From: Natronococcus occultus SP4
GTDB lineage: Archaea; Halobacteriota; Halobacteria; Halobacteriales; Natrialbaceae
Reading direction: 5' to 3'
DNA: 64,000 nt
NCBI RefSeq assembly: GCF_000328685.1
Contig: NC_019974.1
Coordinates: 1,479,001-1,543,000 of the forward strand
Below, piece by piece: positions 7,920-15,207 of this stretch; within the stretch, counting starts at the first letter, position 1; every line of letters begins with the position of its first letter. The position numbers and the translations under genes are program-made. The notes under the pieces were generated by a model that was not told the origin of the DNA, did no database searches, and saw only the letters and a list, made by a program, of their open reading frames with translations.

Positions 7920-8405
7920 TCACGCGAAATCGCAATCGAGGTCTGTCGTGCCCACGAACGCGTCATCGAGTCGCACGTCTGCAGACCCGTCGCGCACGAC
8001 GGCGACTCGCTCTTCGTTCCCGAACACGACGTTTCTCTCCTTCGAATCTTGCCGGCGGCGTCCTAAATAGTTTTCTTCACCGGCACGGATCGTGCCACTG
8101 ATACCGCAGACCCGAATCCCGACCGTAGCACCGTCGATCTCGTCGATACAGGCGATCGCCGCTCTGGCGGATTCGGTCTCGCCTCGGCGAACTCGCACGA
8201 TTGCGGATCCGGTTCCATCGTCGAACTCGAACCTGACGACCGTCAGATCGGCCGCGGCGCTTCCCGGATCGCCCAGCAGGTTCTGGCCCGCGTACCAACA
8301 CTCCCGCTGGAACGCTCGCCGGTCGATCTCGGCGTCGGGCCAGCCCTCGAGCTCGAGGACGAGGTAGCGCCACCGGGGCTGGAGGTGTTTCGGGAGGTGT
8401 TTCAT
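7920..8405 (-). CDS. rnp2: Ribonuclease P protein component 2 (Pop5)
   Basis: The product is a 161-residue archaeal Pop5 homolog, recognised by the N-terminal MKHLPKHLQPRWRYLVLELEGWPDAEIDR and the RNP-like fold with TVVRFEFDDGTGSAIVRVRRGE. It pairs with Rpp30 (component 3) to activate the catalytic RNase P RNA in tRNA 5' processing. The start overlaps the methyltransferase stop by ATGA (8402-8405), and psmA begins 4 bases after its end, so it sits in a tight operon. Its partner rnp3 is at 10641-11348, now separated by the halocin island. Confidence 0.93.
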   Translation of the reverse strand: MKHLPKHLQPRWRYLVLELEGWPDAEIDRRAFQRECWYAGQNLLGDPGSAAADLTVVRFEFDDGTGSAIVRVRRGETESARAAIACIDEIDGATVGIRVCGISGTIRAGEENYLGRRRQDSKERNVVFGNEERVAVVRDGSADVRLDDAFVGTTDLDCDFA

Positions 8406-9088
8406 CCGTCCGTCTCGAGCTCGCCGTCGGTCGCGGGGCCGCGTTCGGCGACCAGGACGCCGACCTGGTCGTGGACCCGTTCGACGGCTGTCAGCGAGAA
8501 GCCTGCGCTCGTGAAGGCGTCGGCGAGCGTGCCGACGGTCGCGGGGTCGTCGACCTCCGGCGAGTAAAACGGCTCCTCGGGGTCGGGCTCGCCGAAGAAC
8601 ATCACGTCCCCGAGGACGAACCGATCGGGCTCGAGGGCCGCGATCACGTCGATCGCCTCGCGCTTTTCCTCGTCCGAGAGGTGGTGCATCGCGAAGTTCG
8701 AAGTTACCACGTCCACACGAGGGGACCGAGTGTGGGCTCGAGACGTCTCCGACGTCTCGGCGTCGACGGGCCCGTCGTACTCGGGCTCGCGGAAGGTTCC
8801 CCGGTCGAACTCGACGTTCTCGAGGCCGTCCTCCTGGGCTTTCGTTCTCGCCTCGTCCATCATTCCCTCGCTGATGTCCCGGCCGACCACGCGGTCGGCA
8901 TCCGGTGCCAGCGCGAGTGCGATGGCGCCCGTCCCGGTCCCCAGATCGAGGACGACGTCCTCGGCGTCGGGCGCGGCGTGTTCGATCACCAGGTTCGCAC
9001 AGGCGCGGTACTCGTCGGATTTCGACTCGTCGTACTCGGTCGCTTTCTCGTCGAAGCGGGCGGCGTGTTCCTCAGGACTCTTCTTCAT
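8402..9088 (-). CDS. Class I SAM-dependent methyltransferase
   Basis: The product has 228 residues with a Rossmann-like methyltransferase fold: motif I VLDLGTGTGAIALAL (46-60), an acidic residue after strand beta2 (VVGRDISEGMMDEAR), and NFAMHHLSDEEK after strand 4. The substrate is unknown; its constant place between rnp3 and rnp2 in haloarchaea suggests an RNA- or translation-linked role. I choose ATG 9088 (MKKSPEEHAARF). The next in-frame ATG upstream, 9115, lies in the remnant of the old rnp3 3' end, where the other frame is the coding one. It overlaps rnp2 by four bases. The island removed its former translational coupling to rnp3. Confidence 0.88.
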   Translation of the reverse strand: MKKSPEEHAARFDEKATEYDESKSDEYRACANLVIEHAAPDAEDVVLDLGTGTGAIALALAPDADRVVGRDISEGMMDEARTKAQEDGLENVEFDRGTFREPEYDGPVDAETSETSRAHTRSPRVDVVTSNFAMHHLSDEEKREAIDVIAALEPDRFVLGDVMFFGEPDPEEPFYSPEVDDPATVGTLADAFTSAGFSLTAVERVHDQVGVLVAERGPATDGELETDG

Positions 9089-9122
9089 ACCTGCTCCGTT
9101 CGATCCCCGGCTCAATGAACGA
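9072..9122 (-). pseudogene. Stranded former 3' end of rnp3
   Basis: Reading minus from 9122 gives SFIEPGIERSRYEEES and stop. The intact rnp3 ends SFIEPEVEWGQYEADDS and stop: the same motif with the same YE spacing. The fragment has no start and is cut from the rest of rnp3 by about 1.57 kb. It overlaps the methyltransferase ATG at 9088, as expected if rnp3 and the methyltransferase were once overlapping neighbours. I read it as the original rnp3 tail left behind when the island arrived. Confidence 0.75.
9107..9122. repeat. Left 16-bp direct repeat flanking the halocin island
   Basis: CCGGCTCAATGAACGA here matches CCGGTTCAATGAACGA at 10679-10694 with one mismatch, in the same orientation. The right copy is inside the coding end of rnp3; this copy is inside the stranded old rnp3 end. 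The two copies bound the low-GC island and mark the probable recombination or integration site. Confidence 0.75.
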
Positions 9123-9222: not shown

Positions 9223-9230
9223 AGATATAA
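9223..9230 (+). promoter_or_regulatory. TATA box of the halocin-like gene
   Basis: AGATATAA is centred about 28 bases before the GTG at 9255, implying a leaderless mRNA. An in-frame stop at 9243-9245 blocks any earlier start, so promoter and frame agree on the GTG start. Confidence 0.55.
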
Positions 9231-9254
9231 GCAAAGACGCAATAGTTACAGGTT

Positions 9255-10049
9255 GTGGTAGACGAAACACCATCACGGCGAACAATCCTGAAAGGTGTCA
9301 CAGCAGGCAGCGTTCCAATTGCGATGGGGTCCGCCTCAGGCAATCCTGGCGCGAAGAACAATGGAAACGGCCCGAAGACGGATTTGGAGATACTAGACTC
9401 AGCAGCCAAATCCCACTCGGAGGCACATAAGGATGCACACGCTGTGTTAGATGATGAGACGGTAACTGAATTGAGCATCGCTATTGAGTTGGTAACGTCC
9501 GATCCGTCGGTGAATAATCGTAATCCCGCTATCCTTCACTTGCCGCTTGCTTCGGACGATGAAGAATACACTGTTGATAATGGTGGCGTCCTCATGGCCT
9601 TGGTCGTTGACCACGGAGACGATCGTGTCCCGATTCAGGCGATGGGGATCACGAGAGAAGAAGCCGAAGACGAAATTAGCACTCAATCATCCGACGGGAC
9701 AGAAGCGTCGGTCGAAATGAAGGTATTCGGCGAAAACGAAACGTCTGGATTAGGGCTCCTTGAAACCACGGCAGACACACCAGCGCGTGAGGATTCCGTT
9801 TCGACACAATCGATTCACGGTTCCGTCGGTTGTGAGATGTGTACTACGATCATTGCGACCGCCTGTGTAGGCTCTTCTCGTATCACCCAAACATCCTGTG
9901 CGAAGGCCGCAGTATCGGCTGGCGCATTCAATCCGTGGGCGGGCGGTGCTGCGGCGGCGTTTTGCCTCTACGTCGTTCAAAACGCTACGACGCTCACCTG
10001 CACTGCCGCTCCCGGGACGATCTGCGTCGGAGCAGGTATTTGTGATTAA
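9255..10049 (+). CDS. Halocin-C8-like antimicrobial peptide precursor
   Basis: The product is a 264-residue preproprotein. It has a Tat signal (SRRTILK, residues 7-13, then a short hydrophobic stretch), a hydrophilic propeptide (about 35-185) and a compact C-terminal domain of about 76 residues with eight cysteines at 193, 196, 204, 215, 237, 249, 257 and 263. The spacing C-x2-C-x7-C at the start and C-x5-C at the end matches halocin C8 as I recall it, and the overall order (Tat signal, immunity-like propeptide, Cys-rich C-terminus) is that of the HalC8 precursor. The mature peptide is probably released after export and kills other haloarchaea; by analogy the propeptide may confer immunity. 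The start is GTG. Base composition and position mark it as acquired. Confidence 0.72.
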   Translation: MVDETPSRRTILKGVTAGSVPIAMGSASGNPGAKNNGNGPKTDLEILDSAAKSHSEAHKDAHAVLDDETVTELSIAIELVTSDPSVNNRNPAILHLPLASDDEEYTVDNGGVLMALVVDHGDDRVPIQAMGITREEAEDEISTQSSDGTEASVEMKVFGENETSGLGLLETTADTPAREDSVSTQSIHGSVGCEMCTTIIATACVGSSRITQTSCAKAAVSAGAFNPWAGGAAAAFCLYVVQNATTLTCTAAPGTICVGAGICD

Positions 10050-10146: not shown

Positions 10147-10629
10147 ATGAGCACGGACAATAACTCACTCGAGCGGTACCGACAGTGGATTATCGCCGGA
10201 ACAGCCGCCCTCAAAATTGGACTCGTTGTGTACGGCGTTTGGGTGACGCTTGCGGTTTACCAGGCTGGACTCGAATGATTGGCCCTCAGTTTCGGCATCG
10301 GTGGCGGGCTCTATCTCCTCGTCGAGGCGGTAGCCGACTGGCGGAAGGGACGACGGCCATGGATGCCGACTCGGCGAGTCATCGCAACGGAATTTGACAA
10401 ATCACCATCGATTCGGCGTGGTAGTATCATCGGTGTGGTTGCCGCGAAACTGACAGTCATCGGACTCTGGGCATTCGTGACCTATACGGTCTATCAGGCA
10501 GGATTAGAGGGGATTGCCGCGAGTTTCGTTTTCCTCGGAGCCACCTACGTAGTCGCCAGACTCGCACTCGATTTGCGAGCGGGCCGTCCGCCGTGGCTCC
10601 CGATGGATCGCGTGCCGCTATTCGAGTAA
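10147..10629 (+). pseudogene. Duplicated four-helix membrane protein interrupted by TGA; possible halocin immunity
   Basis: From ATG 10147 the frame encodes two homologous halves. Half 1 has LKIGLVVYGVWVTLAVYQAGLE, stop at 10276-10278, then LALSFGIGGG and GRRPWMPTRRV. Half 2 has AKLTVIGLWAFVTYTVYQAGLEG, IAASFVFLGA and GRPPWLPMDRV. The halves align without gaps around the stop, which falls where half 2 has Gly, so a single GGA-to-TGA change explains it. A restart at TTG 10279 directly after the stop could still make the downstream part. Each half would supply two membrane helices. Its place just downstream of the halocin-like gene inside the island suggests immunity or export, but no family is recognised. 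It is either a nonsense-mutated gene or two separately translated pieces. Confidence 0.6.
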
Positions 10630-10640
10630 TCTCAGAACTG

Positions 10641-11348
10641 TCAGCTATCGTCGGCCTCGTACTGTCCCCATTCAACCTCCGGTTCAATGAACGACTCGGA
10701 GTCGATGCGACGATTGCGCTCGGCGAGTCGGCCCCACTCGGCGAGTCCGTCCTCGATAAAGTCACTCGAGAGGCCGATCTCCTCGCCTACCGCCTGCAGT
10801 TCGCGGGGTGAGCGAAGCTCGAGGTGCGAGTACGGGTCGGCGCTGACGACGTAGGGCGCGTCGTAGTAGTCGACGATCTCGGAGAGCTTCCGCAGCGACT
10901 GGAGGGTTCGAACCCGCCGCCCGCCGCTCTCCCGGAGCGCGCCCGAGAGGTCGAACTCGATTCGGACGCCGTTCTCGACGGCGGCTTTCGCCAGTACGTG
11001 GTTGACGTCGCCGTCGCCGGCCATCGGCCCCGCCAGTACGTCGACCTTCGCTTGTTCGACCGCAAACCGGTTCAGGGCGTTCGTCCCGCCTTCGAGGGCG
11101 ATGAGGGTCCGTGAGGTGCGGTAGTTACCGACCGAGCCGCTGGCCTGTTGGGGGTCTGCGGCCCGGATCTCGACGCCGTCGACGACGTCGATCCCGTACT
11201 CGTTGGCGATCGTGTCGGCGTCGTAGTCGGCTCGAGTTCCGGAGTGGTTGCGCACGACCATCCCCTCGTACCCGTAGTCGGCCGCCCGTTTCGCGAGCCT
11301 GGCGACCGTGCTCTGTCCCTCGGGGTGGACGCGGACGGCCTCGTACAT
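10641..11348 (-). CDS. rnp3: Ribonuclease P protein component 3 (Rpp30)
   Basis: The product is a 235-residue Rpp30 homolog with a PHP-like TIM-barrel fold. Recognisable segments are MYEAVRVHPEG, YEGMVVRNHSG, GVEIRAADPQQASGSVGNYR, LAGPMAGDGDVNHVLAKAAVENGVRIEFDLS and PYVVSADPYSHLELRSPREL. With Pop5 it forms the activating heterodimer of archaeal RNase P. The last 12 residues (EVEWGQYEADDS) lie past the 16-bp repeat and so derive from the island; the original tail survives at 9072-9122. The substituted tail is acidic and similar in length, so function is probably kept. It was formerly overlapped by the methyltransferase gene and now ends 12 bases after the convergent membrane-protein gene. Confidence 0.93.
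   Translation of the reverse strand: MYEAVRVHPEGQSTVARLAKRAADYGYEGMVVRNHSGTRADYDADTIANEYGIDVVDGVEIRAADPQQASGSVGNYRTSRTLIALEGGTNALNRFAVEQAKVDVLAGPMAGDGDVNHVLAKAAVENGVRIEFDLSGALRESGGRRVRTLQSLRKLSEIVDYYDAPYVVSADPYSHLELRSPRELQAVGEEIGLSSDFIEDGLAEWGRLAERNRRIDSESFIEPEVEWGQYEADDS
10679..10694. repeat. Right 16-bp direct repeat flanking the halocin island
   Basis: This is the partner of 9107-9122 (15 of 16 bases identical). It lies in the coding sequence of rnp3 and specifies its SFIEP motif; everything of rnp3 downstream of it comes from the island. Confidence 0.75.
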
Positions 11349-13119: not shown

Positions 13120-15207
13120 TCAAACGAACTGCGACCACAGTTCTCCGGACCAGTAGATATCGCCGTCGTAGATCACCGGCGACTCCGTATCCTGTAGCAT
13201 CGACACTAGCTCGGACCGGTCTAGCGTGAAACTGGACTCGTTTCCACAGAGGTACGCGTACTCGCTGTCGGTTGTGTGGGGAACGTAGTACGATCCCGTT
13301 GCGTGTGTCGAGTAGCAGTCGAAGGTCGCCAGATATCGGTCGTCCTCGAGTTCCTCGAGGGAGATCGTCGTTGGGAGACGACTCTCGCTTTGGGTAAGCG
13401 AGTGGGTGCCGTCGCCGACGACGGCGTAATCTTTCCCCATCATGATCCGACGGCGAGCGAGTCGGAGCGCTCGCTCGATGCTGAACCCGTGGACGAGCAG
13501 CTTGGCGAACGTCGAACCGACCTTGATAGCGTGGTCGTTTAGCACCTTCCGGAACGTCACCGCGCCCGCGACGCTGCCTTTCTCGATTAGTTCCATCCCC
13601 TCGTAGTAGGAGCCACAGGCGTTGAGGAAGAACGTCTGTGCGGAACACTGATCGAGACTCGAGGCCGAGAGCGTTCCGTCCGTACAGCGAAGGCCGTCGG
13701 TCTCGCAGTGACCGATGTAGTGAACGAAGTCGTAATCGCTCTCGAAGACGGTAGCGAGCTCGGCTCGTGTCAGCCCTTCCTCGACGGAAACGTCCATCCT
13801 GACCTCTTTCGAGCGTCGCCGGTAGATCTCGGCGACGTCGTCGTGTTCGCCGGCCATCTCGGGGTCGTTCAGAACGACACAGATCGAGGTCGATTCGCTC
13901 GAACGCTCGAGGTACTCCAGCCGGTTGTGGTAGGCCGCAGCCGTCGATTTGAACACGTCGATCGGGACGCCATCGGCGAGCCAGCCGTGAACTCGTGCGT
14001 CCCGCAGGTCTGGTTTCACGATGTCGACCGACGCAACCTGCCCGGAGTGAGCTCCACCCGGCGAGCCGTTTCCGCCGCGGTAGAAGTCGGTCAGCGAGCG
14101 CTCGATCAGTTCCTCTCCCTCGAGCTCGGAGGTGCGAGGAGTATAGAGGAGGCTCATCCGATCGAGCAAAAACGGGAGCGTCTCGACGGTCTCGTACTCG
14201 GGAGAGATGTACGTCGCGAGATGCCACTCCGGCAATCGGTGTTCGACCGCCTCGTAGGGTATCTCGAGGTACGTGGCGAGCCGCTCGGCCGGCGTCGCCT
14301 CATAGAGCCGTTCGGCGTCGAGCTCCAGTACGTCGAGCAGACTCGATTCGGCGAGCTGCGTTCCGTACGGCCCGACGTTGCGGACGAGACAGTCCAGAAA
14401 GAACGTCTTTCGGAGGAGCCGCTCCACGTCACGCTCGAGACCGGGCATCGGTGAGAGCTCCGTCTCGATGCTCCGGTCGGGCACGCGGAGCCGAGGACGC
14501 GTTCCGGCGCCGTCGGCACAGTCCGTCGTTCGCACCGTCGCCTGAAGGTAGTACGCAAGCGAGGCGGTGGCGTACAGCGCCTTGTAGTCGGGAGGGACGA
14601 CGATCTCGATTCCGCTTTTCGGGCGTTCGGAACGGATCGTGTCGGGTATCTCGAGTTCGTCGCCGAACTCGATCAGCGGCGGGTGGCCACGGAGCGTCGG
14701 GTAGGTGCGGTCGGGGCTGGTGGTCTTGTACGACGAGGTTAGATGGGAGATCGCCGTCGCCACATCGGTCGGCGAGTCGGGGACGGTAATCGTCCCCGCG
14801 GGACGTTCGTGACGGCTCCGCAGTCCGAGGACGACCCGAACCGGCTTCGGGAACGAGACGACGATCGACTCGAAGTCGTCGGTCTTGCGAACCGTCGCGC
14901 GGCCGGAGAACCGGAGATAGCTTTTGATCTCGGTGTCGACGTCGATCACGTACTCGTCGGCGGGCAAGGAGAGCGGTTGCCCCCCGGGATCGAGCTCGTA
15001 CCGGGCGTTCGACCCGAGCGCGAACGCGTAGACGACCGCGTTGGGGAACCGTAGCTCGTCGGTTGTGACAGTGATCGTCTCGTCGACCGGACGCGGGAGC
15101 TCGCGTCCGGTGTCGACGACCGAGAGATCGTCGCCCACGACGGTGAGTTCGGCGTTATCCGTGTCCATGACGTGGAGCGTTTCCCCGGCCGTCGCCCACT
15201 CTATCAT
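13120..15207 (-). CDS. CHAT-domain (caspase-like) protein
   Basis: The product has 695 residues with no signal peptide or membrane helix. The C-terminal part is a CHAT/caspase-like peptidase domain: the catalytic His is in HYIGHCE (His500) and the nucleophile in FFLNACGSYYEG (Cys531), preceded by strand-like SICVVLNDPEM. The N-terminal 400 residues have a beta-rich start (about 1-130, VVYAFALGSNARYELDPGG) and an alpha/beta middle with no repeats I recognise. CHAT proteases act in bacterial gasdermin and type III-E CRISPR defence and in separase-like cleavage. Here there is no gasdermin, CRISPR or TPR neighbour. A TATA-like element at 15231-15240 fits the ATG at 15207. The substrate is unknown. 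Confidence 0.82.
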   Translation of the reverse strand: MIEWATAGETLHVMDTDNAELTVVGDDLSVVDTGRELPRPVDETITVTTDELRFPNAVVYAFALGSNARYELDPGGQPLSLPADEYVIDVDTEIKSYLRFSGRATVRKTDDFESIVVSFPKPVRVVLGLRSRHERPAGTITVPDSPTDVATAISHLTSSYKTTSPDRTYPTLRGHPPLIEFGDELEIPDTIRSERPKSGIEIVVPPDYKALYATASLAYYLQATVRTTDCADGAGTRPRLRVPDRSIETELSPMPGLERDVERLLRKTFFLDCLVRNVGPYGTQLAESSLLDVLELDAERLYEATPAERLATYLEIPYEAVEHRLPEWHLATYISPEYETVETLPFLLDRMSLLYTPRTSELEGEELIERSLTDFYRGGNGSPGGAHSGQVASVDIVKPDLRDARVHGWLADGVPIDVFKSTAAAYHNRLEYLERSSESTSICVVLNDPEMAGEHDDVAEIYRRRSKEVRMDVSVEEGLTRAELATVFESDYDFVHYIGHCETDGLRCTDGTLSASSLDQCSAQTFFLNACGSYYEGMELIEKGSVAGAVTFRKVLNDHAIKVGSTFAKLLVHGFSIERALRLARRRIMMGKDYAVVGDGTHSLTQSESRLPTTISLEELEDDRYLATFDCYSTHATGSYYVPHTTDSEYAYLCGNESSFTLDRSELVSMLQDTESPVIYDGDIYWSGELWSQFV

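Follow-up and report, generated by a model that had tools for sequence, protein, structure and literature searches.

The window analysed here, a stretch of 64,000 nucleotides from the haloarchaeon Natronococcus occultus SP4, carries a pair of small genes lodged within a cluster of core genes (Table 1). The first encodes a precursor of 264 amino acids with a Tat-type leader, a long acidic propeptide and a C-terminal cysteine domain; the second, on the same strand, encodes a polytopic membrane protein. The eight cysteines of the precursor (residues 193, 196, 204, 215, 237, 249, 257 and 263) have the spacing 2-7-10-21-11-7-5, with a C-x2-C-x7-C start and a C-x5-C end, both of which had been pointed out in an earlier reading made from sequence only. 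That reading had called the gene halocin C8-like and proposed a profile comparison as a check. The NCBIfam model TIGR04449, "halocin C8-like domain", aligns with the domain along all 69 model positions (39.4 bits, E 9.4e-10; the curated cut-off is 24 bits, set on the whole-protein score). A full-length match above this cut-off means that the cysteine pattern is not due to chance and, together with the open frame from the GTG start, it bears out both the frame with its eight-cysteine end and, at the level of the domain, the halocin call. By profile match, the gene is a member of the halocin C8-like family.

Export by the Tat pathway had also been claimed. The twin-arginine motif S-R-R-T-I-L-K is indeed visible in the leader, but the Pfam TAT_signal model scores 8.6 bits against a cut-off of 22.7, so that the claim stands for the motif and not for the profile. 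The propeptide is very acidic (net charge -24 over 160 residues), while the mature peptide would be hydrophobic with a net charge of 0. A TATA-like element, GATATAAG, was found by eye upstream of the GTG, and its placement would fit a leaderless transcript. The atypical base composition remarked upon earlier is real: the coding sequence has 54% GC and a GC3 of 0.53, the low extreme among the long genes of the window, which averages 65.5% GC.

Table 1. Features of the halocin C8-like locus and its flanks (positions are those of the window).
Feature	Position	Strand	Basis
Methyltransferase gene of the core cluster, flanking	8402..9088	-	gene-neighbourhood annotation
38-nt imperfect direct repeat, methyltransferase side; 36/38 identical to the junction of congeners	9085..9122		sequence comparison
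TATA-like element AGATATAAGC, about 28 nt 5' of the GTG start	9223..9232	+	by eye
Prepro-peptide of the halocin C8-like family, 264 aa, GTG start	9255..10049	+	ORF and its translation, TIGR04449 match
Twin-arginine type leader, SRRTILK and hydrophobic stretch	9255..9335	+	sequence; Pfam TAT_signal below cut-off
Acidic propeptide; class common to 26 other loci, no detectable kinship to HalI of HalC8	9336..9812	+	sequence searches
Predicted mature peptide, eight-Cys halocin C8-like domain (C1 = residue 193), predicted saposin-like fold	9813..10046	+	TIGR04449, Cys slots, model; cleavage point inferred
First repeat of polytopic membrane partner, ended by in-frame TGA (10276-10278)	10147..10278	+	ORF and translation
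Rest of first repeat and whole second repeat of membrane partner, same frame; probable immunity protein	10279..10629	+	ORF, partner comparison
rpp30 (RNase P p30), flanking, with the insertion between it and the methyltransferase gene	10641..11348	-	gene-neighbourhood annotation
38-nt imperfect direct repeat, rpp30 side (rpp30 3' end); 30/38 identical to the junction of congeners	10657..10694		sequence comparison

Insertion into a core gene cluster

The cassette has been inserted into, and splits, a cluster of RNase P and proteasome genes that reads rpp30, methyltransferase gene, Rpp14/Pop5, proteasome alpha on the minus strand. The first two of these genes abut or overlap in eight congeners; in the window they lie 1.53 kb apart and the intervening DNA has 53% GC, against the 65.5% of the window. 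A sequence search did not find the halocin gene in those eight congener genomes, one of which (G306) gave only a weak, stop-containing match (E 0.002). Since the precursor is encoded on the opposite strand and inside the insertion, it is not part of the core-gene operon in which it had been placed. The two copies of the direct repeat differ in their resemblance to the junction of the congeners (Table 1), so that a second version of the 3' end of rpp30 was evidently introduced, or left behind, by the insertion. From this arrangement we infer that the locus was acquired by recombination at the rpp30-methyltransferase junction.

The ORF list of the window holds no integrase-sized frame within the 1.5-kb insert, and PADLOC gave no match. 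A viral or plasmid origin was considered and rejected, there being no relatives in the viral contigs, phages or plasmids searched. In another genome (G208) two copies of a 14-mer, separated by 35.4 kb, had suggested an element of 35 kb at this junction; the idea was dropped, since rpp30 and its methyltransferase neighbour are intact there and the other copy of the 14-mer is a chance match. The same genome has, beyond rpp30, a frame similar to a 695-aa ORF found beyond rpp30 in the window (13120-15207, minus strand). This ORF has no Pfam or PADLOC match, and its C-terminal part (HYIGHC...LNAC) recalls, by eye, CHAT/caspase-like proteins.

Spread and subtypes of the halocin C8-like family

The halocin C8-like family is already known and common. 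Given that it has an NCBI model, that NCBI records of plasmid proteins carry its name and that it is present in 59 of the 392 sampled haloarchaeal genomes of the order (15%; 30 of 95 genera, up to four copies per genome), the terms "undescribed" and "new" used in the sequence-only reading do not hold: the gene itself is a variant within a known family. Its anatomy was studied on the domains of 89 loci, which fall into two spacing types, a canonical one (C3-x3-C4-x7-C5...) and a second one (C3-x10/11-C4-x3-C5...C6-x3-C7) to which the window domain belongs. The two are related by profile comparison (hhalign probability 95.7%, E 8e-9). The mature peptides are on average acidic, with a median net charge of -3.

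The window precursor shares with HalC8/ProC8 and the TIGR04449 family a leader that is of Tat type by its motif, the long acidic propeptide and the C-terminal cysteine domain with its characteristic start and end. It differs from HalC8, as had been suspected, in cysteine spacing and in propeptide: HalC8 has ten cysteines in the canonical spacing 2-7-3-7-13-7-8-8-5, whereas the window domain, of the second subtype, has one pair fewer, and its propeptide belongs to a separate sequence class. Close relatives are few. A profile scan of the genome contigs with the single window protein gave no matches and one with an alignment gave only Natrinema pallidum; in all, five eight-cysteine loci were found, namely that of the window, contig_39 of N. 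pallidum DSM 3751, and those of genomes G410, G319 and, in a decayed state, G312. Members of this subfamily share the lost cysteine pair, a related precursor and a membrane partner downstream.

At the other extreme, two loci (L055 in G105 and L070 in G251) encode domains of twelve cysteines whose CC doublets, close to the C-terminus, may form an additional disulfide. Three further loci (L057, L058 and L059, in G110, G213 and G027) suggest recent horizontal transfer, since their halocin genes, each with a two-TM partner, are nearly identical although the genomes belong to two different families.

Paired loss of cysteines

When the cysteines were assigned automatically to ten slots (C1-C10) across the family, 65 members proved to have kept all ten. 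Exactly C3 and C8 were lost in eight members, exactly C1 and C10 in seven, and exactly C5 and C6 in four (the window, N. pallidum, G319 and G410), while one member had lost C3, C4, C7 and C8 together; another, L141, looks alike by eye. Every one of these loss classes removes the partners of a single nested ladder (1-10, 2-9, 3-8, 4-7, 5-6), of which the pair 2-9 is never lost; three members (L117, L118 and L129) are exceptions to the paired loss. Counting each class as one event, the chance of such a nested pattern is, by our own arithmetic, roughly (5/45)^3 x (10/210), about 7e-5. Loss in nested pairs points to a disulfide ladder, and we read the co-losses as disulfide pairing of 1-10, 3-8, 4-7 and 5-6; the pairing 2-9 is suggested solely by its never being lost.

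A predicted saposin-like fold

Saposins have nested disulfides with a C-x2-C start and a C-x5-C end. When 22 canonical halocin domains were made into a profile and searched against all PDB sequences, six matches came back, five of them saposin-like. Saposin A entries headed the list (E 0.45-0.57), the insert of prophytepsin, itself saposin-like, closed it, and the halocin cysteines were in register with those of the saposins. Shuffling the residues of this profile while keeping the cysteines in place left no PDB matches. In hhalign comparisons with human saposins A-D the family beat 60 of 60 shuffles in each of the four tests; as the alignment covers only 12-13 C-terminal columns, sequence homology to saposins is not established. 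Nor did the Pfam saposin domains (SapB_1/SapB_2) match the window protein, one second-subtype member reaching E 0.49 with SapB_1.

Structure prediction pointed the same way. For window residues 185-264, AlphaFold run on a two-sequence alignment predicted four helices (pLDDT 75.4, pTM 0.65; two of the five models were poor). A Foldseek search with this model against 350,542 chains ranked saposin D (probability 0.80) and NK-lysin (0.75) first, though no E-value was significant, and VIA-align superposed it on saposin D with Z 7.3 (2.5 A over 72 residues), the first unrelated row standing at Z 3.5; values of Z below 8 are common for helical models. A second AlphaFold run, with the N. pallidum sequence in the lead, yielded a model of low confidence whose structure matches were unspecific, and the viral structure library gave no good match. 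We consider a saposin-like fold of the halocin C8-like domain likely. The resemblance to saposins A-D, NK-lysin and caenopore-5 lies in the predicted four-helix fold and in the nested cysteine pairing implied by co-loss, with no significant match in sequence; unlike saposin-like proteins, which have three nested pairs, the halocin family would have up to five.

Saposins are lipid-binding helpers, and the domain might accordingly be a lipid-binding, adhesion or signalling peptide of saposin type, with no antimicrobial activity and with the membrane protein as its receptor or anchor. The absence of net charge in the window peptide and the acidic median of the family would agree with such a role. 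We regard it as improbable, since HalC8, a member of the family, is a known antimicrobial (PMC11509114), and since the patchy spread, the several copies per genome and the membrane partners that outlive the peptide gene fit bacteriocins.

The membrane partner

The gene following the precursor, which the earlier reading had not covered any more than the insertion signature or the predicted fold, encodes two tandem two-TM repeats. Its best match in the 392 genomes is an intact protein of 157 aa directly 3' of the eight-cysteine halocin gene of G319 (E 6e-14), where the precursor is frameshifted. A match of 159 aa, also intact, lies directly 3' of the decayed gene of G312, a pseudogene with two stops, loss of cysteines and an unrecognisable N-terminus. 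In G410 the pair is intact, the precursor being accompanied by a 162-aa protein with the layout of the window partner, and the comparison of the G410 and G312 partners (dN 0.105, dS 0.284) indicates purifying selection. In N. pallidum the partner consists of one repeat unit, with a weak likeness to the window repeat (rank 6 of 2001 against class-preserving shuffles). Weaker partner-like matches occur in G221, G043, G200 and G066, for which nearby halocin genes are not established. Immunity genes can be expected to stay intact where the toxin gene has decayed, and the partner probably encodes an immunity protein that protects the producer.

The association extends to the family. We searched for TM ORFs of 50-180 aa on the same strand within 150 bp, with TM segments called by a simple hydropathy window. 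Opposite-strand ORFs were an uninformative control for the canonical subtype and the other genes of the same loci were therefore taken as background. Such partners were found at 26 of 62 dereplicated halocin loci, compared with 10 of 143 other genes (7%; Fisher p 1e-8); by this strict criterion 36 of the 62 loci have none. The partners vary widely in sequence and length. Membrane proteins with a bPH_2 domain (PF03703) follow the second-subtype halocin genes L088 (G389) and L120 (G237), with a similar one, judged by sight, at L169 (G404); PH-domain membrane proteins of this class have been tied to the immunity and transport of leaderless bacteriocins (PMC11580447).

A TM protein of 120-129 aa lies 3' of canonical-subtype halocin genes in several genera (L051/L052, L056, L069, L082, L117 and L055); its copies show many synonymous differences, making it a second candidate immunity family.

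In the window strain the partner frame is interrupted by the in-frame TGA, which may leave only the second repeat unit as product or mark decay; given this nonsense codon, protection may rest on the second half or be impaired. The TGA sits exactly between the tandem repeats; a nonsense mutation, an error of sequencing or a division into units that are started separately might account for it. Taken with the broken related loci of G319 and G312, the stop could mean that what remains of the acquired cassette is decaying as a whole and yields no functional product in this strain. To this we attach little probability, the 264-aa precursor frame being intact, with its leader and all eight cysteines of the subtype present.

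Propeptide and immunity

In HalC8, peptide and immunity come from a single gene, immunity being conferred by the propeptide HalI, as PMC11509114 states, citing Sun 2005 and Mei 2008. The window gene might follow the same plan, a halocin C8-like bacteriocin with immunity from its propeptide and with the membrane gene as a decaying passenger, as the TGA and the many family members without a TM neighbour would allow. However, the window propeptide has no detectable relation to HalI in sequence comparisons (hhalign probability 0.2). A first iterative search pulled in nearly all members of the family through the shared Tat leader, and was therefore redone with leaders removed; it then yielded disjoint sets of 20 HalI-type and 27 window-type propeptides. 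The partner, moreover, is found next to eight-cysteine halocin genes in three further genomes; it is intact in all of them, and in two it has survived the decay of the precursor. Immunity from the propeptide thus appears rather unlikely for the window locus. Genes of the HalC8 clade have no membrane partner after them, unlike that of the window, and TM partners were found at one of eight HalI-type loci compared with 29 of 55 others (p 0.056), so that the mutual exclusion of HalI-type propeptide and TM partner is a trend and not a rule.

A proposed two-gene bacteriocin-type cassette

We favour, with a probability of roughly 0.6, the reading of the locus as a horizontally acquired two-gene bacteriocin-type cassette, composed of a disulfide-laddered, membrane-active peptide and a membrane immunity partner. 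The precursor, to judge from its leader, would be exported via Tat, and an extracellular protease, as known for other halocins (PMC12893001), would free a C-terminal peptide of about 78 residues. Its cysteines would pair as nested disulfides (C1-C10, C2-C9, C3-C8 and C4-C7, with C5-C6 missing in the window peptide) around a four-helix fold like that of saposins and NK-lysin. The peptide would most likely disturb the membrane of related haloarchaea, and the polytopic membrane protein would most likely protect the producer, the role that HalI holds in HalC8. Counting against this reading are the lack of charge of the window peptide, where NK-lysin is cationic, the absence of a Pfam saposin domain, the fact that just one structure model was confident, the stop codon in the partner and the 36 loci without a TM partner.

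Bacteriocins of the aureocin A53 and enterocin AS-48 type are not known to carry disulfide staples, and they are leaderless or circular, unlike the halocins with their Tat export and long propeptide. Like the fold predicted for the halocin family, theirs are described as saposin-like and helical and as acting on membranes (PMC7559574), and the bPH_2 proteins that follow some halocin genes have their likeness in the PH-domain proteins of leaderless bacteriocins. The broader proposition would make the halocin C8 family an archaeal counterpart of the saposin/NK-lysin fold with up to five nested disulfides, in which lineages lacking a HalI-type propeptide, that of the window included, often use adjacent membrane immunity proteins, orphaned once the peptide decays; we hold this to be an even bet. 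Both the predicted fold, with its defined disulfide ladder, and the membrane mode of action that goes with it are open to test, and the membrane partners name concrete candidates for immunity genes, through which target specificity could be approached. What is new here lies at the family level, in the disulfide ladder, the saposin-like fold and the membrane partners, none of which we found stated for halocin C8 in the literature searched, subscription papers being outside its scope.
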